In this document: piece after piece, positions 19,208-28,724 of the stretch | How the letters are laid out: every line of letters starts with the position of its first letter | Position numbering within the stretch: position 1 is the first letter of the stretch | Assembly (NCBI GenBank): GCA_025358355.1 | Contig: JANYJX010000028.1 | Coordinates: 1 to 64,000 of the forward strand | DNA from: Actinomycetes bacterium | GTDB lineage: Bacteria; Actinomycetota; Thermoleophilia; Gaiellales; Gaiellaceae | Length of the DNA: 64,000 nucleotides | Reading direction: 5' to 3' | Made by a program: the position numbers and the translations under genes | Notes under the pieces: model-generated | The model's input: only the letters and a program-made list of their open reading frames with translations | Told to the model about the DNA's origin: nothing | Databases searched by the model: none

Positions 19208-20397
19208 GTGACGGGCCGCCCACTCCGCATCCTGCTCGCGAGCCCCGCCTACTGGCCGGCGCGGGCGTTCGGCGGGCCGGTCGTGGTGGCGCGCGAGCTA
19301 ATCGGGCGCCTTGTCGGGCGCGGGCATGTGGTCGACGTGGTGACGACGACGCTCGTCGATCTCGGCTCGCGGCCGGCGGCGCGCTCGTACGTCGCAACCG
19401 TCGATGGCGCGACCGTTCACTACATCGGGACGCCGTTGCACTACCGCTGGATGGGGATCACGCCGACGCTTCCTCTTGCTTTCCGGCGGCTACTGCGGCC
19501 GGATGTCGCCCACATCTTCGGCTTCCGCGACCCTGTCACAACGCTCACCGCCGCGTGGTGTCGCCTGCGCCGGATTCCGTATGTATTCGAGCCGCTCGGG
19601 ATGTTCCGGCCGCGGCTGCGCAAGGTGTGGCTCAAGGGAGCGCTCGACGCGTCGCTCTACCGCGGGGTCGCTTCCAGTGCGGCGTTCGTCGTGTGCTCAT
19701 CACCGCGGGAGCGCGACGACGTGATCGCGTGCGGCGTTGCGGCGGAGCGCGTTCGCGTGCGGGGGAACGGCTTTCCGGAGCCGGTCGATCTCACGGCGCC
19801 GCTCGGGTCTGACCTGCGTGCGTCGCTCGGCCTTGCACCGACGCGCGCATCGTGCTCTACGTCGGCCGCATCGCTGCGGGGAAGGGAATCGAACATCTGC
19901 TTGCGGTCGCGCGCCGGCTGCCCGAGATTCACGTCGTGCTCGCCGGGCCCGACGACCGCCACGGTGTCACGGCGCTCGTAAGCGCTGAGACGGCCTCAGG
20001 ACACGTGCATTTGCTGCCGCCGAGCGACGGGCCGCCGACTGATCTCTACCGTCAGGCCGCCGTTTTCGTGCTGGCGTCGGATGGCGACAGCTTCGGTCTT
20101 GTCGCCGCCGAAGCGGCTGCCGCGGGGACACCCGTGGTCGTGTCGGACAGGTGCGGCATCGCGGCGTTCTTCCACAACGGCGAGGCGCTTGTCATCCCTG
20201 CGACCGAGAGCGCTGTCGTCGCAGCGGTGGAGTCGGTGCTGGGCGACGACTCTCTTCGAGCTCAGCTCTCAGCCGGCGGGGTCGCGGCGGCGCGACGCAA
20301 CTCGTGGGAACACGTGACCGATCTGCAGGAAGCGCTCTACGTGGAAGCGATCGCGTCGCGCACCGCAGCGACGAACGACTCGACGCTCGGCTCGTAG
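19208..20397 (+). pseudogene. GT4 glycosyltransferase with a single frameshift
   Basis: GTG 19208 opens a good GT-B N-terminal half (LRILLASPAYWPARAFGGPV, HIFGFRDPV, FEPLGMFRPRL). Around 19838 the frame LGLAPTRASCSTS should read LAP-DARIVLYVGR; one missing base accounts for it. The second half follows in another frame: RIVLYVGRIAAGKGIEHLLA, DSFGLVAAEAAAAGTPVVVS and an end at 20397. No other lesion is visible, so it is either a recent mutation, a phase-variable state or an assembly error. Its last 61 bases overlap the convergent gene at 20337. Confidence 0.8.
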
Positions 20398-22562
20398 CCC
20401 CAATCGCGCATCAGCTCACGTGAGCGCTTGCCTTGCGCGAGCCTGAGCGCGGGGTCGGCGGCGAGCTTGCGGATCGCAGCGGCCGCAGCCTCGATGTCAC
20501 CGATGCGGACGAGCGTGCCGTTCTCGCCGTCGCGGAGGAGGTCGTAGGCCGCGCCGACCTGATCTGAGAGCACAAGCGGCAGCCCGCACGCCGCAGCCTC
20601 GTTCACGACGACGCCCCACGGCTCGCTCGACGACAGCAGCGCAAAGACGTCGGCCGCGACGTAGGCCTCGGCGAGCCTTTCCCAGGGCAACTCGCCGGCG
20701 AGATACAGCCGCACGCCGAACTGCTTGGCGAGTCGCTGCAGTGCCGGCCCGTCGGGGCCGTGGCCGACGACGGCGAGCAAGAGCTGCGGCTCGCCGGCCT
20801 CGGCCACCGCGCGGACGAGCGTGTCGAGGCCCTTCTCGGGCGCAAGCCTGGCGACCGCCAGCACGACCACATCGTCCGCGCCGGCTCCGAGCTCCTGGCG
20901 AAGTGCCACCCGGTTGCCGGCGAGCTCGTCGGCGCGCTCACCCCAGGCCGCGACATCGACGGTGTTGGCGAAGATCCGGACGCTCTCGGGCCGCGCGCCG
21001 CGAGCGAGCAGCGAATCCCGCGACAGTGTGCCGAGGACGAGCGCCCCGGCAGCACCGCGCACGATCCGCGGCACAATCGCGCCCTTCACCGCCCGCCGCC
21101 AGCCCGAACGCTGCGCCGCGTCGTGACTGGACACGAGCAGCAAGTAGGGGATGCGTTGCTTGCGACACCAGACGAGCGCTGCCTGCGATGCGAATGTGCT
21201 CCAACCGGTGACGACGACGACCTCAGGGCGCGCGTCACGCAGCGCAGCCACGATTCCCCGCGTCAAGGGGTAGTCGTGATAGAGCAACCTCGAGACGAGC
21301 GGGAGCCGGACGCCGCGCAACGTCACCGCCCGATGCTGCGGCACGACCGACCAGCGGCGGTCGGCGAGCGACTCGGCCGCGTAGACGACGGTGAGGTCGA
21401 GCTCGGGGCACGCCGCAACTAAGTCAAACAGCGGCGAGCGGTACGGCGTCGGTTCTGGCGAGACGACCGCGACGCGCACCTGCTCGGTCGCCACGCGATC
21501 GCGAAGAACTGGCCCGGCGGTCTGTGCAACCGACTTTGCGGCGGCTCGGCGACGCATGCGGGTCGAGATCGCGTGCGCTGCGAGCGCGGGATCGATAGCG
21601 AGCGCACGCCGGACGATCGTGGCCTTCGCACCCGCGCCTGCGTGCAGCGCGACTCGCGCGACGTCTCGCCCGGCAAGCAAGCGCACCGCGACATCCTTCC
21701 GTCCCGAGAACGCGGCGAACAACTCGAGGTAGGCATCGACCGCGTCCGACTCCTGGCCGGCGGGAACGGCGCGCGCATCCCCGACGAGCCAGGCCGACTC
21801 GGCCGCCTCGGGGCCTAGACCCGGAGCGACAGCGAGAATCCGGCGCGTGGCGATGGTCCGGCGCAGCTCGAGCTGATGCTCCTTGCGCCGCACCGATGCC
21901 TGCCCGCCGTGGCGGCGATACAGCAGCAACGGCTCCGGGATGTTGTCGCCATCGGCCACGTCGAGCAGTCTCGACCACAGCTCGTAGTCCTCCGTGCTCG
22001 CATCGCCCGCGTCGTAACCGACGTCGTAGGCGAGCCCATGTCGTTCGAGAACCGTGCGATCAAGAGTGACGCTCGGATGAAAGAACGGGGTCCCGAAGAG
22101 GCTCCGCCAGCGGGTGACTTCGATGCCGGCGGGCATGAGGTGAATCGCGCCGACCTCGTTGTTCTCACCGAGCTCGGCCACGCTCGTGCCGACGACGGCC
22201 ACCTCTGGCGCCGCGGTCAACCGGGCGAGCTGCAGCTCGAGCCGACGCGGAAACGCGACGTCGTCGGCATCCATCCGTGCGATGTAGCGGCTCCGCGCGC
22301 GCGAGAAGCCGAGGTTCAGCGCCGATGCGAGCCCCGTTGGCTCCTCGTTGCGGACGGCGACGACACGTGGGTCGTCGAGCGCGGCGAGCAGCGCGGGAGT
22401 GTCATCGCGCGAGCCATCGTCGACCACAACGAGCTCAAGGTCTCGCACGGTCTGCGCGAGAATGCTGCGAGTCGACACGCCGAGGTAAGCCGCCGCGTCG
22501 CGTGTCGCGAGAACAACCGAAACAAGCGGCTGCGACCGAGCGCTCAGCACAAACTCCGACAA
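20337..22562 (-). CDS. Bifunctional GT2-GT4 glycosyltransferase fusion
   Basis: 741 residues. Residues about 10-240 form a GT2 domain (LVSVVLATRDAAAYLGVSTR, VVVDDGSRDDTP, ARMDADDVAFPRRLELQL with the DxD). A helical linker of about 110 residues follows. Residues about 365-740 form a GT4 domain (VRVAVVSPEPTPYRSPLFDL, VVVVTGWSTFASQ, VLAVARLAPEKGLDTLVRAV, SSSEPWGVVVNEAAACGLPL with the EX7E-type pair). One protein could thus add two successive sugars. The assigned start is TTG 22562; an ATG at 22573 sits exactly 6 bases after the -10 but is out of frame. Overlaps the convergent gene at its 3' end. Confidence 0.85.
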   Translation of the reverse strand: MSEFVLSARSQPLVSVVLATRDAAAYLGVSTRSILAQTVRDLELVVVDDGSRDDTPALLAALDDPRVVAVRNEEPTGLASALNLGFSRARSRYIARMDADDVAFPRRLELQLARLTAAPEVAVVGTSVAELGENNEVGAIHLMPAGIEVTRWRSLFGTPFFHPSVTLDRTVLERHGLAYDVGYDAGDASTEDYELWSRLLDVADGDNIPEPLLLYRRHGGQASVRRKEHQLELRRTIATRRILAVAPGLGPEAAESAWLVGDARAVPAGQESDAVDAYLELFAAFSGRKDVAVRLLAGRDVARVALHAGAGAKATIVRRALAIDPALAAHAISTRMRRRAAAKSVAQTAGPVLRDRVATEQVRVAVVSPEPTPYRSPLFDLVAACPELDLTVVYAAESLADRRWSVVPQHRAVTLRGVRLPLVSRLLYHDYPLTRGIVAALRDARPEVVVVTGWSTFASQAALVWCRKQRIPYLLLVSSHDAAQRSGWRRAVKGAIVPRIVRGAAGALVLGTLSRDSLLARGARPESVRIFANTVDVAAWGERADELAGNRVALRQELGAGADDVVVLAVARLAPEKGLDTLVRAVAEAGEPQLLLAVVGHGPDGPALQRLAKQFGVRLYLAGELPWERLAEAYVAADVFALLSSSEPWGVVVNEAAACGLPLVLSDQVGAAYDLLRDGENGTLVRIGDIEAAAAAIRKLAADPALRLAQGKRSRELMRDWGYEPSVESFVAAVRDAIAST

Positions 22563-22578
22563 CGTCGCACCATGCCGT

Positions 22579-22585
22579 TAGCCTA
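22579..22585. promoter_or_regulatory. Bidirectional leaderless -10: TAGCCTA
   Basis: TAGCCTA gives TAGCCT on the plus strand (22579-22584, 7 bases before GTG 22592) and TAGGCT on the minus strand (22580-22585). The minus box lies 6 bases before an ATG at 22573 and 17 bases before the in-frame TTG at 22562. The same 7-mer is used at 27742. Confidence 0.6.
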
Positions 22586-22591
22586 TGCGCG

Positions 22592-23437
22592 GTGGAGGAC
22601 TCCAACCTCCCGTCCTTCGCGCTCGTCGTTGCGACGGTCGACCGGGGTGACGGATTGCGGATTCTGCTCGACTCGCTCGAGCACCAGACGCATCGCCGTT
22701 TCCGTGTGCTGCTCGTCGACCAGAACAGCGACGATCGGGTCGGGCCGTCATTGGCAGCTAGCCCCGATTTGGAGATCGAGCACCTGTATGCGCCGCGTGG
22801 CCTCTCCCGCGCACGCAACGCGGCGCTGCCGCGGGTCGACGACGACATCGTCGCGTTCCCCGACGACGACTGCGCCTACCCAGATGACCTGCTCGCGCGG
22901 ATCGCGATGCGCTTCGCGGAGCGACCCGACCTCGACGGGCTGACTGGGCGAACCACGGACGCCGCCAGTCGCAGCTCCGGCAACTGGTCGACCGAGGGCG
23001 GGTCATTGGTGCGCGACACCATGTGGAATCGCGCGAATTCCGCGTCGACCTTCCTCCGCCGCGAAGTCGTGGAGCGGGTCGGAGCGTTCGACGAGCAACT
23101 CGGGCTCGGCTCCGGCACGAGGTGGTCGTCGGGAGAGGACACCGATTACATCGTCCGCGCGCTCGACGCAGGCGCGCGCATCGAGTTCGACCCGAGCCTG
23201 ATCATCCTCCACGAGCTGCGCACATTCACGTCTGAGGAGTTGCGCGCGGTCGGCCTACGCGACGGCCGCAGCGTCGGCTACATCCTGCGCAAGCACCGCT
23301 ATCCGTGGCACGTGGTGACGCGGATGCTCGTGCGACCGGTCGGCGGGGTCGTGGTCTCGCTCGCTCGCAGTGATCTGTCCTGCGCACGGTTCCACGCGGC
23401 GACGCTGCGCGGCCGAATCGCAGGGCTGCGCGGCTAG
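22592..23437 (+). CDS. GT2 glycosyltransferase
   Basis: 281 residues. GT-A motifs: ALVVATVDRGDGLRILLDSL, VLLVDQNSDD, YAPRGLSRARNAAL and VAFPDDDCAYPDDLL with the donor-binding acidic cluster, then SSGEDTDYIVRALDAGARIEF, the catalytic ED motif. The C terminus has an amphipathic stretch but no clear membrane helix. GTG start is set by the leaderless -10; the longer open frame upstream overlaps the divergent gene. Its stop interlocks with the convergent gene in a CTAG. Confidence 0.87.
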   Translation: MEDSNLPSFALVVATVDRGDGLRILLDSLEHQTHRRFRVLLVDQNSDDRVGPSLAASPDLEIEHLYAPRGLSRARNAALPRVDDDIVAFPDDDCAYPDDLLARIAMRFAERPDLDGLTGRTTDAASRSSGNWSTEGGSLVRDTMWNRANSASTFLRREVVERVGAFDEQLGLGSGTRWSSGEDTDYIVRALDAGARIEFDPSLIILHELRTFTSEELRAVGLRDGRSVGYILRKHRYPWHVVTRMLVRPVGGVVVSLARSDLSCARFHAATLRGRIAGLRG

Positions 23438-24489
23438 AGCAAGCTGGCGAACAGCTCGACGTGGTGATCGAGCCACGGGCCGATCGCGAACCGCTCGACG
23501 GCCCGCTCTCGCGCCGCTGCCGAGTACGCGTCGAGATCGGCGAGCACGCGTGTGACAGCGTCGGCCATGGCCTCAGGCGCGGGCGGCTCGTCGCGCTCCC
23601 AGCCATCCAGATGGGCTACGCCAACTCCGGCCACGTCGCCGACCAGCTCTGGCGTTCCACCACTCGCGGGGTAGACGACGGGTAGCCCGCAGGCCATCGC
23701 TTCCAGTACGACGTTCGGGCACGGATCGTTGACCTTCGTGTGCAGGAGAACGTGCGCGCGGCCGTAGATCGCCGGCGCGTCGCGCTGCGCGTAGCGACCG
23801 ACGAACTCGACCCGATCGCAGATGCCAAGCTCGTCAAGAAGGGGCGCCGGATCGCCGACAACGCGGCCGGTGACGAGCAAACGCGCGTCTGGTGCCAGCG
23901 CCGCGAATGTCCGCAGCCCGAGCTCCAGGCGATAGCTCTGCGTTTGATCGCCGCCGAGCAGCAGCACCGGGCCGCCGGTTGGCCGGGCTGGCGGCGGCGC
24001 GAAGCGAACCGTGTCGACCGCGTTGTAGAGCACCTCCCACGCGCCTCGCACCTCGCCGAGGAACTCATCGGCCGCGCGCCTGCAGAACTCACTCTGGTAG
24101 AGGACGTGGTCGGCGGCAAGCAGCGCACGGCGCAGCGGCTCGTTCACCGCGTCGGTGCGCGAGCCAGCCCAACCCGGGTAGCCGACGCCGTCCTGGTTCA
24201 CGACGACGGGCGCGCCACGCCGCTGCGCCGCCCAGAGCAACGGGCGCAGGTCGCGCGGCAGCGCACTCGAGCCGAGGTACAGTAGGCTGAAATCGTGCGG
24301 CGAGTTCGGGAAGCCTTCGGCCAGCTTCTGGAACTTCGCGGTGCCACCCGCCGCCGGCTCGCCCGGCTCGGGGATGTCGTCCCAGCCGTAGAAGACGCGT
24401 AGACCTGGGCGCGCGCGATGTGGCGCGAGAAGTCGCGCCCAGCGAGCCGCGGCGCGGGCGCGCCGTCGCGCGCTACCGGCCATGCGCAC
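23434..24489 (-). CDS. GT4 glycosyltransferase
   Basis: 351 residues from GTG 24489 (ATG 24483 is an equally good start). N-terminal acceptor domain with RVFYGWDDIPEPGEP and VVVNQDGVGYPGW; C-terminal donor domain with PVLLLGGDQTQSYRLELGLR, HVLLHTKVNDPCPNVVLEAM and CGLPVVYPASGGTPELVG, the EX7E-type region of GT4 enzymes. Final gene of a four-gene GT4 run starting at 27736; overlaps the previous gene by 17 bases. Its TAG stop shares CTAG (23434-23437) with the convergent gene. Confidence 0.85.
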   Translation of the reverse strand: MRMAGSARRRARAAARWARLLAPHRARPGLRVFYGWDDIPEPGEPAAGGTAKFQKLAEGFPNSPHDFSLLYLGSSALPRDLRPLLWAAQRRGAPVVVNQDGVGYPGWAGSRTDAVNEPLRRALLAADHVLYQSEFCRRAADEFLGEVRGAWEVLYNAVDTVRFAPPPARPTGGPVLLLGGDQTQSYRLELGLRTFAALAPDARLLVTGRVVGDPAPLLDELGICDRVEFVGRYAQRDAPAIYGRAHVLLHTKVNDPCPNVVLEAMACGLPVVYPASGGTPELVGDVAGVGVAHLDGWERDEPPAPEAMADAVTRVLADLDAYSAAARERAVERFAIGPWLDHHVELFASLL

Positions 24490-25597
24490 CCGTCAGCCGG
24501 CCGAAACCCGCGAACAGCTCGGCCCACTTGGCGTCCAGCTTCTCGTGCGCGTAGCTCTCAGCGGTCGCCCGACCCGCGGCACGCAGCGCGCCGGCGAGCT
24601 GGCTGTCGCCGTGAATCTGAGCGGCAGCCGCCGCGATCGCCTCGGCGTCTTCTACATCCGCGAGCAACCCATTCCGCCCGGACTCGACGAGCTCGGTCGC
24701 CTGCCCGACCCGCGTCGTCACAAGCGGGGCGCCACTCGCCATCGACTCGAGCACCGCCTTCGGCCCACCCTCCTGCCGCGACGTGACGAGGTAAACGTCG
24801 ATCGCGTAATACGCCTGCGCGACCTCGTCCCGCGAGCGCGCCACGACGTGACGGTGCGGAATTCCGCGCTGCTCGAGCTGGCGCCGGACATACCCACGCG
24901 CCGGGCCAGTGAGCAGCACGACCAGCTCGGGGACAAGCGCGCGCAGCCGCTCGACCGCCGCAACAAGCGTGTCGGGCCCCTTGATCAGCTTCGGCTCCAG
25001 TCCTTCGCCCCAGCCGACGCCGTCCTTCTGGAACGAGCCGACGACGAACGCGGACTCCGGCAAGCCGAGCGTGTCTCTGGCTCGAGCGCGCGCGGCCGCG
25101 TCGCCGAGCGGGAAGCGCTCCAGGTCGATGCCGAGCGGGATCCGGAAGATGCGCTCCGGCTCAATGCCGGCTGAGAGCGCGAGGTCGTGCAGCTCGGTAT
25201 GCGTCACCCGGATCCGCGCGAACCGCTCGGGCCGGCCGCGTAGCGCGTCGAAGCAGCGGTCGAACTCGGGCATCCCCGGCGTGCCCGGTCGGCCGTGGAG
25301 GTACGCGAAGCCGAGCGCATTGGACGAGTCGAGCCAGCGCGGCAGGATCGCTTCGAACTGGCTTGTGTGGAACACGGCTTGCCGCTCGACGAAGCGGGCC
25401 CAGCGTGACGGGCCGACTTGGATCCCCAGCCGCCGCGCTGCGGCAGAGACGTGTGCCGCGTCCTCGTCGACCGACCAGCCGCCACCGTCGCCCACGGCGA
25501 AGAGCCGCGACGACGGCTGCCATGCGCTCGTTCGAGCCCGAACGAGCGCACCTACGACGCCTCGGCCCGGTACGGAGACTGCTCGCCGGAGGCTCAT
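24473..25597 (-). CDS. GT4 glycosyltransferase
   Basis: 374 residues. The N-terminal half includes SSRLFAVGDGGGWSVDEDAA, VFHTSQFEAILPRW and RVTHTELHDLALSAGIEPER; the C-terminal half has FVVGSFQKDGVGWGEGLEPK, LTGPARGYVRRQLEQRG and SRQEGGPKAVLESMASGAPL, the last matching the GT4 donor-phosphate motif. ATG start overlaps the upstream stop (ATGA, 25594-25597). No membrane helix or signal peptide. Donor and linkage unknown. Confidence 0.85.
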   Translation of the reverse strand: MSLRRAVSVPGRGVVGALVRARTSAWQPSSRLFAVGDGGGWSVDEDAAHVSAAARRLGIQVGPSRWARFVERQAVFHTSQFEAILPRWLDSSNALGFAYLHGRPGTPGMPEFDRCFDALRGRPERFARIRVTHTELHDLALSAGIEPERIFRIPLGIDLERFPLGDAAARARARDTLGLPESAFVVGSFQKDGVGWGEGLEPKLIKGPDTLVAAVERLRALVPELVVLLTGPARGYVRRQLEQRGIPHRHVVARSRDEVAQAYYAIDVYLVTSRQEGGPKAVLESMASGAPLVTTRVGQATELVESGRNGLLADVEDAEAIAAAAAQIHGDSQLAGALRAAGRATAESYAHEKLDAKWAELFAGFGRLTGAHGR

Positions 25598-26595
25598 CCG
25601 GCGAGCACTTCCAGATAGCGGTCGGCGACCTCCGCAAGCGCGGGAACCTGAATCGCCACTCGGCGCGCGTCGATCTCAGCCACGAGTCGCGCCAGCACCG
25701 CAGGCAACTCCTCGGGCGACAAGAACGGCAGCCCGGCCTCGCCGACGAGCTCGGGATGACCGCCGCTCGCGGCAAACGCGGCCGGCAGCCCGCAGGCGAG
25801 CGCTTCGAGCAGCGCGTTCGAGCACGGGTCGTCGAGACTCGCGGCGAGGTAGATGTCCTGCGAGCGAAGCAGCTCCGCAAGCTCCTCCGACGGGACTGCC
25901 GGGATCACCGTGGTTCGTCCAAGCGCAACCGAAGCACGGCCGACGAAGGTCAGCTCGAAGCGGTCGTGGTCGAGATTCTGGTCGAGCCACTCGAATGTCG
26001 CGGCGCCCTTGCGTGGATTGTCCGACCAGCTCGACGCGATCACGCGCACGCGCCGGCCCGCGAGCGGCTCGCGCGAGGCAGGCGGGAAGAAGATCGCCGG
26101 GTCGGGCGCGTTCGAGATCACAACCGGCGAGCGCAGACCGAGCCCCAGCTCGATGTGGCGCTCGAGGCTGTAGCGCGACTGGAAAACCGTCGCGTCGGCG
26201 AGCGCGTGATTGATCTCGAGGATCCTGCGGTCGGTGCCGTCGTCGAAGCCGCGATAGATGCCGATCGGCCCGTCGACACGATGCACCATCCGGCAATCGC
26301 GCCGCGCGAACCGCTCCAGCCGCGCGAACTCGAAGTTGAACGAGTTGAAGATGCAGACAGGCGTCGCGCCCGAGATGCGGTTCACCTCGACGTCAAGGCC
26401 ACGCGCGCGAAACTCGCCGGTGAGCGCGCGCAGGAACTGGCTGCCGCCGCCGGTCGGGGGCGGCACGAACGCGTGGAAGACGGCGATGTCGGCGCGCCCG
26501 GCGCGGCTCGCGCGCCAATCGGACGCGGTTCGCGCGCGATCGCGCACGCCGTTTGCCCGCCGGCGCGCAGAACGGATCAGCGATCGCGCATCCAC
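25594..26595 (-). CDS. GT4 glycosyltransferase
   Basis: 333 residues from GTG 26595, which lies 4 bases after the upstream stop. Longer frame sequence upstream covers the neighbour and is not typical protein. N-terminal IAVFHAFVPPPTGGGSQFLR and MVHRVDGPIGIYRGFDDGTD, then VISNAPDPAIFFPPASREPL, VIASSWSDNPRKGAATFEWL and DDPCSNALLEALACGLPAAF are GT-B features, again with the acidic donor motif. An arginine-rich N-terminal 45 residues may bind the membrane surface. Function in sugar addition; specificity unknown. Confidence 0.83.
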   Translation of the reverse strand: MDARSLIRSARRRANGVRDRARTASDWRASRAGRADIAVFHAFVPPPTGGGSQFLRALTGEFRARGLDVEVNRISGATPVCIFNSFNFEFARLERFARRDCRMVHRVDGPIGIYRGFDDGTDRRILEINHALADATVFQSRYSLERHIELGLGLRSPVVISNAPDPAIFFPPASREPLAGRRVRVIASSWSDNPRKGAATFEWLDQNLDHDRFELTFVGRASVALGRTTVIPAVPSEELAELLRSQDIYLAASLDDPCSNALLEALACGLPAAFAASGGHPELVGEAGLPFLSPEELPAVLARLVAEIDARRVAIQVPALAEVADRYLEVLAG

Positions 26596-26599
26596 CGCG

Positions 26600-27736
26600 T
26601 CAGTGTCGCGCAACGGCGGCCGCGAGCGCCGCGTGGATTGCGTCGACGTAGTGCGTCCACGACAGCTCGGTCTCGACGAGATGTCTCGCGCCGGCACCGA
26701 TCGCCGCGGCATGCGCGTCGTCCGCGAGCACACCGAGCAGCGCCTGCTCGAACGCGTTCTCGTCGCCTGGCTCGACGAGAACGCAGTTCTCTCCGCCCGC
26801 GAGCCCATAGCCGCTCGCGATCGCCGGCGTGCGCGAGACGACGACCGGCTTGGCCATCGCCATTGCCTGCAGCAGCACCGTCGTCGCGCCCGAGTAGCTG
26901 TTCGCGCGCACCGGCAGCGCGACCACACGCGCCCGCGCGAGCCGATCGCGCACCTCGCTCAGCGGGATGTCGACCTCGACCTGGACGTTCGCCGGCAGCA
27001 AACCTAGGTCGCGCACACCCACGGCACCGCCGACGATCAGGAACCGCACCGCCGACTGACGAGCTGCGATCCGCAGGAGCAGCGGAAAGTCGCGATGCGG
27101 ATCGGCGCCAATCGAGACGACGTCGATGTCCGTCGCGGTTTCCGGCGCGGACCGGAACGCTTCGATATCGACCCCGAACGGGATAAAGCTCACGGGCGGA
27201 CCGTCGCCGCCAACGACCTCACGCAGTAGCCCCGCCTCGTGCTCGCTGTACGCGACGATGCTCGAGACCCGCCGTAGCGCCTCGGCATAGCGCCGCGCCG
27301 CGCCCGCGCCACGAAGCTTCGCCAGCCGCTCCGGCAGGCCGATCGACACGTAGACAAGCGGCTTCCGCACGAGCCCGGCGCGGCGGAGCAAGACCAGCGG
27401 CAGTCCCACGGTGTCCACGGTCGAGAAGACAACGTCGGCCGCGTTCAGCCGCCGCAGGCTCGGCAGCACGCTGTAGAAGTCACCGCCGTAGCCGCCGCGG
27501 CGACGCTCGATGCGATTCAGCCCGTTGTCCGCAAGCCGCGCCCACGCCGGCGCGCCCGCGGCGCGCTCCAAGTTGTGCCGCACCCTCACACCGCGCGCGG
27601 CGAGCTCGTCGAGGCCAAACAGCATGTAGCGCTCGGGCGAGCCAACCGCCGAAGTGAGAGCCGCCCGCCGCTGCGGCGACTCGCGAAAGCAGACGAACGC
27701 GTCGAAGGCCGCGGCGTAGGGCACCATCCGAGCCAT
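26600..27736 (-). CDS. GT4 glycosyltransferase, first gene of a four-gene GT4 operon
   Basis: 378 residues. Acceptor domain with LFGLDELAARGVRVRHNLER and VVFSTVDTVGLPLVLLRRAG; donor domain with VSFIPFGVDIEAFRSAPETA, VVSIGADPHRDFPLLLRIAA, and YSGATTVLLQAMAMAKPVVV where the usual ExxxxxxxE pair is partly replaced. Start ATG 27736 lies 6 bases after the leaderless -10. The four consecutive GT4 genes are similar in layout and may be ancient duplicates. Confidence 0.85.
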   Translation of the reverse strand: MARMVPYAAAFDAFVCFRESPQRRAALTSAVGSPERYMLFGLDELAARGVRVRHNLERAAGAPAWARLADNGLNRIERRRGGYGGDFYSVLPSLRRLNAADVVFSTVDTVGLPLVLLRRAGLVRKPLVYVSIGLPERLAKLRGAGAARRYAEALRRVSSIVAYSEHEAGLLREVVGGDGPPVSFIPFGVDIEAFRSAPETATDIDVVSIGADPHRDFPLLLRIAARQSAVRFLIVGGAVGVRDLGLLPANVQVEVDIPLSEVRDRLARARVVALPVRANSYSGATTVLLQAMAMAKPVVVSRTPAIASGYGLAGGENCVLVEPGDENAFEQALLGVLADDAHAAAIGAGARHLVETELSWTHYVDAIHAALAAAVARH

Positions 27737-27741
27737 GGCGC

Positions 27742-27748
27742 TAGCCTA
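27742..27748. promoter_or_regulatory. Bidirectional -10: TAGCCTA
   Basis: TAGCCT (plus, 27742-27747) and TAGGCT (minus, 27743-27748) overlap by five bases. The minus transcript would start at or next to ATG 27736 (6-base gap). The plus transcript has a short leader with AAGGAG (27758-27763) before ATG 27771. Confidence 0.6.
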
Positions 27749-27770
27749 ACGGCGTCGAAGGAGCAGCCGA

Positions 27771-28724
27771 ATGCACCGCCAGCGCACACACCTCGCAGCC
27801 CGCGTCACCCACGTCGCGAAGGCCCTCGAACGGCGCGGGATAGCGACGACGTACAAGGTTCACGACCGCGCGCTCGCCAACCGCGCGAGCCGCCGGCAGC
27901 TCTCTGGCTCGCCGGTCGAGCTGGACGAGACGCAGCGGCGAATCATCGAAGCCCTCGACACCGACGGCTACATCGTCGTCCCGTTCGACGAGCTGATCAT
28001 CGACGATGCGCTTCGCTCCGACGTGCTCGCGCAAGGCGACACCTTCGTCGCCGACACCGAGCGCGGCCTAGCGGCCGAGGCGGAAGGTGCCGAAGCGGCC
28101 CTACGACGCCGCGCCGGCAAGGAGTTCGTCGTGCGCGCGTACAGCTTCGAGGGCGTCACGCTCGACCCCGCACGCGACGCGTGGTTCCGCGCCGCGATCT
28201 CGCACCGGCTTCTCGATATCGCTAACAGCTATCTACGGATGTGGGCGAAGCTGTCCTACGTGGACATGTGGTACACGGCGCCGCAGCCAGCCGGAGCCGA
28301 GCGCGCCGCGTCGCAGCTCTGGCATCGCGACTTCGACGACAAGCACCTGCTGAAGGCGTTCCTCTACCTCGTCGATGTCGACGCGAGCGCCGGCCCGTTC
28401 GAGTACGTCGGTGGCAGCCAGCCCGGCGGCCGGCACAACGAGACCCGCCAGTGGGCGCCGATGCGCACCGGCCGCTTCACCGAAGAAGAGGTCAACAAGC
28501 ACGTTCCCGCCGACGCGATCCAGACGTTCACCGCGCCGCGCGGCACCGTGATTCTCTGCAACACGAGCGGCCTGCATCGCGGCGGCTTCGCAACCGAGCG
28601 GCCGCGGGCACTCGCCACGGCGACCTACTGCTCGCCGGCATCGCTCAAGGCACTTTCGGAGCGGAACTACGCGCCCGCTGGCGACGCTCCGGCCGACCCG
28701 GCCGTTCGCTTCGCAACCAACTAG
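27771..28724 (+). CDS. Phytanoyl-CoA dioxygenase (PhyH) family Fe(II)/2-oxoglutarate oxygenase
   Basis: 317 residues. The iron-binding HxD is in LWHRDFDDKHLLKAFLYLVD (H185, D187), the distal histidine in CNTSGLHRGGFATERPRA (H269), and the 2-oxoglutarate arginine is probably R279. PhyH enzymes hydroxylate small molecules, lipids or sugars using oxygen. Lying between glycosyltransferases, it may hydroxylate a sugar or lipid of the glycan; this is inference. One of few genes here with a leader and Shine-Dalgarno. Its stop interlocks with the ABC ATPase stop in CTAG. Confidence 0.82.
   Translation: MHRQRTHLAARVTHVAKALERRGIATTYKVHDRALANRASRRQLSGSPVELDETQRRIIEALDTDGYIVVPFDELIIDDALRSDVLAQGDTFVADTERGLAAEAEGAEAALRRRAGKEFVVRAYSFEGVTLDPARDAWFRAAISHRLLDIANSYLRMWAKLSYVDMWYTAPQPAGAERAASQLWHRDFDDKHLLKAFLYLVDVDASAGPFEYVGGSQPGGRHNETRQWAPMRTGRFTEEEVNKHVPADAIQTFTAPRGTVILCNTSGLHRGGFATERPRALATATYCSPASLKALSERNYAPAGDAPADPAVRFATN

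Follow-up and report, generated by a model that had tools for sequence, protein, structure and literature searches.

The locus and its two TAGCCTA sites

The whole stretch of 64,000 nucleotides analysed here (the window) was scanned on both strands for the heptamer TAGCCTA, which is found only at the two sites located by the original prediction (Table 1). The heptamer had been described there as a bidirectional −10 element lying between divergent glycan genes. Both gaps are indeed divergent, with a two-domain GT2+GT4 glycosyltransferase facing a GT2 glycosyltransferase at site 1 and a GT4 glycosyltransferase facing a PhyH-like dioxygenase at site 2, and a glycan role is shown for three of the four genes, the fourth being the PhyH-like one. 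The offset reading on opposite strands is correct, the hexamers TAGCCT (+) and TAGGCT (−) overlapping by five bases.

Table 1. Genes and sequence elements around the two TAGCCTA sites (window coordinates)
Feature	Position	Strand	Basis or remark
Site 1, TAGCCTA, putative symmetric −10 core	22579..22585	TAGCCT on +, TAGGCT on −	Sequence and orthologous gaps
GT2 glycosyltransferase	22592..23437	+	Pfam PF00535; orthologues in G011, G004, G003
Two-domain GT2+GT4 glycosyltransferase	20337..22562	−	Pfam PF00535 and PF00534; frame check
ATG-initiated 9-codon ORF	22544..22573	−	Out of frame with the GT2+GT4 glycosyltransferase; translation
Site 2, TAGCCTA, putative symmetric −10 core	27742..27748	both	Sequence; TAAGGTA in the orthologous gap of G004
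GT4 glycosyltransferase	26600..27736	−	Pfam PF13692; orthologues in relatives
PhyH-like dioxygenase	27771..28724	+	Pfam PF05721; orthologues adjoin the GT4 gene in G004, G011, G003
AAGGAG, Shine-Dalgarno-like	27758..27763	+	7 nt upstream of ATG 27771

At site 1, the GTG of the GT2 gene (22592) stands 7 nt past TAGCCT, and its transcript is predicted to be leaderless or to carry a 1-nt leader. The start of the facing GT2+GT4 gene is uncertain (TTG 22562 or GTG 22550, the latter chosen by the gene caller), with a predicted leader of about 11–23 nt; the ATG at 22573, which opens the short ORF, lies 6 nt past TAGGCT, at the predicted minus-strand start site. At site 2, the in-frame ATG 27736 of the GT4 gene is 6 nt past TAGGCT and predicted to be leaderless, and an alternative in-frame ATG (27727) was picked by the gene caller, which gives no credit to promoter motifs. 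The ATG of the PhyH-like gene (27771) follows TAGCCT by 23 nt, with a predicted 17-nt leader. A TANNNT hexamer ending 6–7 nt before the start codon (a leaderless distance) is found for the plus strand of site 1 (7 nt) and the minus strand of site 2 (6 nt), in agreement with the claim of a start codon 6–7 bases away on at least one side. It is not found for the minus strand of site 1, where the ATG is out of frame, nor for the plus strand of site 2, at 23 nt, and at neither window site does the shared −10 have in-frame starts at leaderless distance on both sides. The uncertain starts of the minus-strand gene at site 1 and of the GT4 gene at site 2 count against a bidirectional reading.

The pair of copies is by itself unremarkable because 9 of 100 shuffled versions of the window also held at least two copies of TAGCCTA, as might be expected if the heptamer were due to chance, or were a piece of a regulator-binding site of a glycan regulon with no promoter core. 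Each window site has just one in-frame start 6–7 nt from its hexamer, which would suit a one-way −10 element for whichever gene lies at leaderless distance; the A that follows the hexamer would then give the reverse reading as a by-product, and the partner gene would use another promoter or undergo only weak spurious transcription.

Conservation in relatives

Orthologous GT2–GT2 pairs were located in three relatives, G011, G004 and G003. Their gap contains TAGCGTA in G011 and TAGCCTA in G004, TANNNTA being kept in two of the three, and in G003 it contains ACGATAGCCT, with overlapping hexamers that have a common central TA. In G011, an in-frame GTG and an in-frame ATG lie 6 nt and 7 nt past their respective hexamers, both at leaderless distance, making this pair a doubly leaderless candidate as judged from its sequence, and in G004 the corresponding distances are 7 nt (GTG) and 10 nt (ATG). 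The minus-strand ATG of this gap, out of frame at window site 1, is in frame with the protein in both G011 and G004; therefore, the N-terminus of the GT2+GT4 protein of the window has shifted.

The gap between the GT4 and PhyH-like genes retained TANNNTA in one of three relatives (G004, TAAGGTA). In G011 it carries two separate hexamers, one for each direction, which favours the one-way reading, and in G003 the two genes are convergent; both observations count against a bidirectional element. Against the one-way reading, the seventh base is kept at the GT2–GT2 gap in G011 and G004 and at the GT4–PhyH gap in G004. The flanks have diverged: between the source genome (G000) and G011, 82 of 159 and 103 of 152 positions are identical in the alignments. 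The middle bases vary between orthologues (TAGCCTA/TAGCGTA, TAGCCTA/TAAGGTA), whereas TA...TA and its spacing to the start codon are kept, which argues against chance or a regulator site. Both window elements look real on this comparison.

The heptamer and its geometry in the source genome

In the source genome (2.89 Mb, 116 contigs), genes were called with our own simple hexamer script, a non-standard gene finder that gives no credit for −10 motifs near starts; calls that rewarded TANNNT near starts were dropped as circular here. Among 640 called genes, taken from 40 unselected stretches (L013-L052) and the window, TANNNT is found 6, 7, 8 and 9 nt upstream of the start codon in 52, 27, 18 and 21 genes, against 16, 5, 5 and 7 for the control TNNNAT, and at every other distance from 0 to 49 nt in 0–9 genes each. 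This accumulation, which counts in favour of the bidirectional reading, corresponds to the signal of leaderless genes published for Actinobacteria (PMC3160421).

The original prediction expected TAGCCTA, or more generally TANNNTA, to be enriched between divergent genes. The exact heptamer has 15 copies in the genome, distributed in divergent gaps (7), tandem gaps (6), a convergent gap (1) and within a gene (1), and its divergent copies are no significant excess over the 33% share of divergent gaps in intergenic DNA (p = 0.14), so that the original prediction, taken strictly, does not pass the check it set for itself. The tandem copies, three of which have a called start 6–7 nt off one side, are in line with a one-way −10. 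The expectation holds for TANNNTA. Unselected stretches totalling 615 kb contain 12 copies, and 5 of these fall in divergent gaps, which make up 3.1% of the DNA (p = 2e-5). TANNNTA is otherwise rare, yet five of its six unselected intergenic copies are in divergent gaps (p = 0.017), which speaks against a one-way element. The preference for divergent intergenic DNA that characterizes bidirectional promoters of the type of Warman et al. (2021) is thus seen for TANNNTA, and it is the TANNNTA geometry, not the exact letters, that matters.

In the 40 unselected stretches and the window, TA-N3-TA occurs 16 times, against 47–90 for the other same-codon-phase TA-TA spacings up to 30 nt. This depletion, about five-fold, is expected of a promoter-active sequence and speaks against the view of the heptamer as chance or a regulator site, which was already disfavoured and which we hold to be highly improbable. 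TANNNT is itself depleted about two-fold in the same sample (954 vs 1730–1903 for same-phase spacings), so that avoidance acting on the two strands separately would roughly account for the rarity of TANNNTA. The rarity of both motifs looks as if selection acted against spurious −10 elements throughout the genome.

Distribution in the order, the genus and the phylum

The pattern CAY-N4..7-TANNNTA-N4..7-RTG, which represents divergent ATG or GTG codons at leaderless distance on both sides of the element, was searched in 129 genomes of the order. It matched 1041 times, compared to 263 when the codons were moved 5 bp outward on both sides, and its count was higher than that of this shifted control in 124 genomes, lower in 0 and tied in 5. 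A control with the wrong centre, TA-N6-TA, gave 347 matches (the test count exceeded it in 116 genomes, was below it in 8 and equal to it in 5). The reversed pattern matched 1146 times, above the test, and does not favour the claim; this control was set aside because ATNNNAT is more than 20-fold commoner than TANNNTA in the unselected stretches of the source genome (267 vs 12). In 61 genomes, a second geometry with a common central TA, ANNNTANNNT, matched 758 times and its shifted control 145 times; the test count was the larger in 58 genomes, the smaller in 2 and equal in 1. The large excess of two-sided start-codon spacing over the shifted control runs against a one-way −10, which we regard as unlikely. 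In the phylum the excess is weak (2213 vs 2107 shifted in 100 genomes; 61 up, 29 down, 10 tied) and limited to genomes with few matches: 228 vs 121 in the 52 genomes with fewer than 20 matches in all, and 1472 vs 1560 in the 21 genomes with at least 60.

The recurrence had been taken to suggest a favoured compact design for divergent gene pairs. This stands for overlapping −10 elements, which recur between divergent starts in the order, but not for the exact letters TAGCCTA.

All 46 distinct pattern sites of the seven genomes of the genus, window site 1 included and counted as one-sided, were searched for ORFs that have coding-like hexamers and a length of 60 codons or more. Such ORFs extend from both starts at 28 sites, which are candidate doubly leaderless pairs, from one side at 17 and from neither at 1. 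The 17 sites of the shifted control, among which is a recurring pair with 3–6 nt longer spacing (L125, L126, L132, L134), gave 7, 6 and 4, respectively; the two-sided share (28/46 vs 7/17) shows no clear difference, the excess residing in the number of sites. A second family of fifteen regions, hand-picked for recurrence, comprises 14 distinct sites, 11 of them two-sided, and serves as illustration only.

Orthologous sites recur among the 28 two-sided ones, and the 2-phosphosulpholactate phosphatase–rhomboid site has an identical heptamer in five species. Other two-sided pairs associate a GcvT-like protein with a molybdopterin oxidoreductase, a ketoacyl synthase with a DNA ligase, and a thymidylate kinase with an epimerase. 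The functions of the pairs carrying the element are unrelated to one another, which disconnects the design from glycan genes and again disagrees with a glycan regulator site. Start-to-start distances among the two-sided sites are 18–22 bp, a range that is not independent evidence because the pattern admits only 16–22.

A probable promoter read in both directions

Given the TANNNTA geometry, its conservation between species, the spacing statistics and the order-wide recurrence, the bidirectional −10 originally proposed is the best reading of the heptamer, and it is likely that each TAGCCTA forms the core of a sigma-70-type promoter read both ways. TANNNTA would act as a −10 hexamer TANNNT on both strands, the −11A of one direction pairing with the −7T of the other. 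RNA polymerase would bind in either orientation, never in both at once, and transcripts would begin about 18 bp apart on opposite strands. Counted from the hexamers, the predicted distance between start sites is 18 bp for TANNNTA and 23 bp for ANNNTANNNT.

At site 1, the GT2 transcript is predicted to start near 22591, a single base ahead of GTG 22592; the minus-strand transcript would start near 22573 and carry a short leader. At site 2, the minus-strand transcript would have the A of the GT4 start codon (ATG 27736) as its first base and no leader, and the plus-strand transcript would start at about 27754 and have a 17-nt leader with a Shine-Dalgarno sequence. We infer transcription, start sites, leaderless translation and mutual exclusion at these sites from the DNA sequence. 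The model offers likely start sites for four genes of a glycan cluster, some of which probably begin at their predicted RNA start. The non-enrichment of the exact heptamer, the absence of any apparent −35 consensus in 56 half-sites and the excess of the reversed pattern also count against the bidirectional reading.

Relation to known promoters

Bidirectional promoters with a shared −10, of the type of Warman et al. (2021), are reported to occur in all prokaryotes (PMC12825309). Their divergent start sites are 7–25 bp apart. The commonest distance is 18 bp, 10 and 23 bp are also common, and opposing polymerases are unable to bind together (PMC12825309). At a start-site distance of 18 bp, the −7T of each direction is paired with the −11A of the other (PMC10268837), and this reciprocal pairing is present on the two strands at both window sites. 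The predicted 18 bp agrees with the published optimum and with the −7T/−11A rule and was therefore counted in favour of the bidirectional reading. The window sites are similar to these promoters in having one short element with both −10s, located between divergent genes, and the 23 bp of the second geometry is a distance also common among them (PMC12825309). They depart from the descriptions consulted by having at least one start codon at the predicted start site, the word "leaderless" occurring 0 times in PMC12825309.

In leaderless promoters of actinobacteria, TANNNT precedes the start codon by about 12 bp (PMC3160421). The hexamer and its distance to the start are the same in the window, but the actinobacterial promoters are described as one-way in the accessible portions of PMC3160421 and PMC3898074. 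In the accessible portion of the latter, promoters of M. tuberculosis are likewise without a −35 consensus, and closely juxtaposed divergent promoters are common. Rv1129c and Rv1130 are divergent and both leaderless, but their start sites are 120 bp apart (PMC3898074).

In the csoR-cueA divergon of Bradyrhizobium liaoningense, the two oppositely oriented genes have overlapping −10s. RACE mapping placed the csoR start on the A of the ATG, so that this gene is leaderless, whereas the leader of cueA is 42 nt long and includes a ribosome-binding site (PMC5057107). It is very similar to window site 2, with overlapping −10s, one leaderless gene and another with a leader, and differs by a CsoR operator over the overlapping −10s, by its proteobacterial host and by having only one leaderless gene (PMC5057107).

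The near-complete overlap of two −10 elements had been presented as rarely described. This cannot be maintained because TANNNTA is the core of published bidirectional promoters (PMC12825309, PMC10268837), and the RACE-mapped csoR-cueA pair is a further counter-example (PMC5057107). As the shared −10, the leaderless TANNNT and csoR-cueA are already published, the window sites belong to a known promoter type.

Candidate doubly leaderless divergent pairs

A pair with both starts at leaderless distance from one shared −10 was not found described among the matches listed in the literature on leaderless and bidirectional or divergent promoters, the work of Warman et al. (2021) being taken at second hand. 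We lean, with some reserve, towards the existence in the order of a standing class of doubly leaderless divergent pairs, in which nothing but the symmetric −10 core would separate the two genes and both start codons would lie at the start sites. The first codons of each gene would then be the upstream promoter DNA of the other, so that coding sequence and divergent promoter strength would co-evolve. If such a class exists, start-to-start distances should favour about 18–20 bp for TANNNTA and about 23–25 bp for ANNNTANNNT. No distance peak is visible in the 103 divergent gaps of our own-genome sample, which are too few, and in the pattern searches the distances are set by the patterns themselves, so that peaks are not independently visible here.

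Should transcripts agree, gene pairs would be run from about 20 bp by a 7-bp two-way element, which is about the lower limit of a control region. In genomes of this kind, the sequence would suffice to recognise such pairs, and they would provide many conserved natural pairs for testing polymerase competition and the coupling between first codons and the neighbouring promoter.

Other motifs between divergent starts

Among the matches listed, the palindrome GTGTTAGCATGCTAACAC recurs between close divergent starts in one genus (G026 and several of G032-G041) as a conserved operator-like sequence. Similarly, CGAACATACGTTCG is found between divergent start codons in two genomes (G035:C9:368167-368194 and G036:C82:805-830); we take it to resemble a LexA (SOS) box of the Gram-positive type. 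Near-palindromes such as TACCCCCCGGGGGTA occur near TANNNTA in G032:C80, G034:C37, G037:C205, G039:C212, G041:C132 and others, and presumably resemble CsoR-type copper operators. Finally, in the 9.2-Mb genome G151 (C1), a 33-bp string with a central TANNNTA (TTTAGGGTACGG context) is identical at no fewer than six places and is probably a repeated element.
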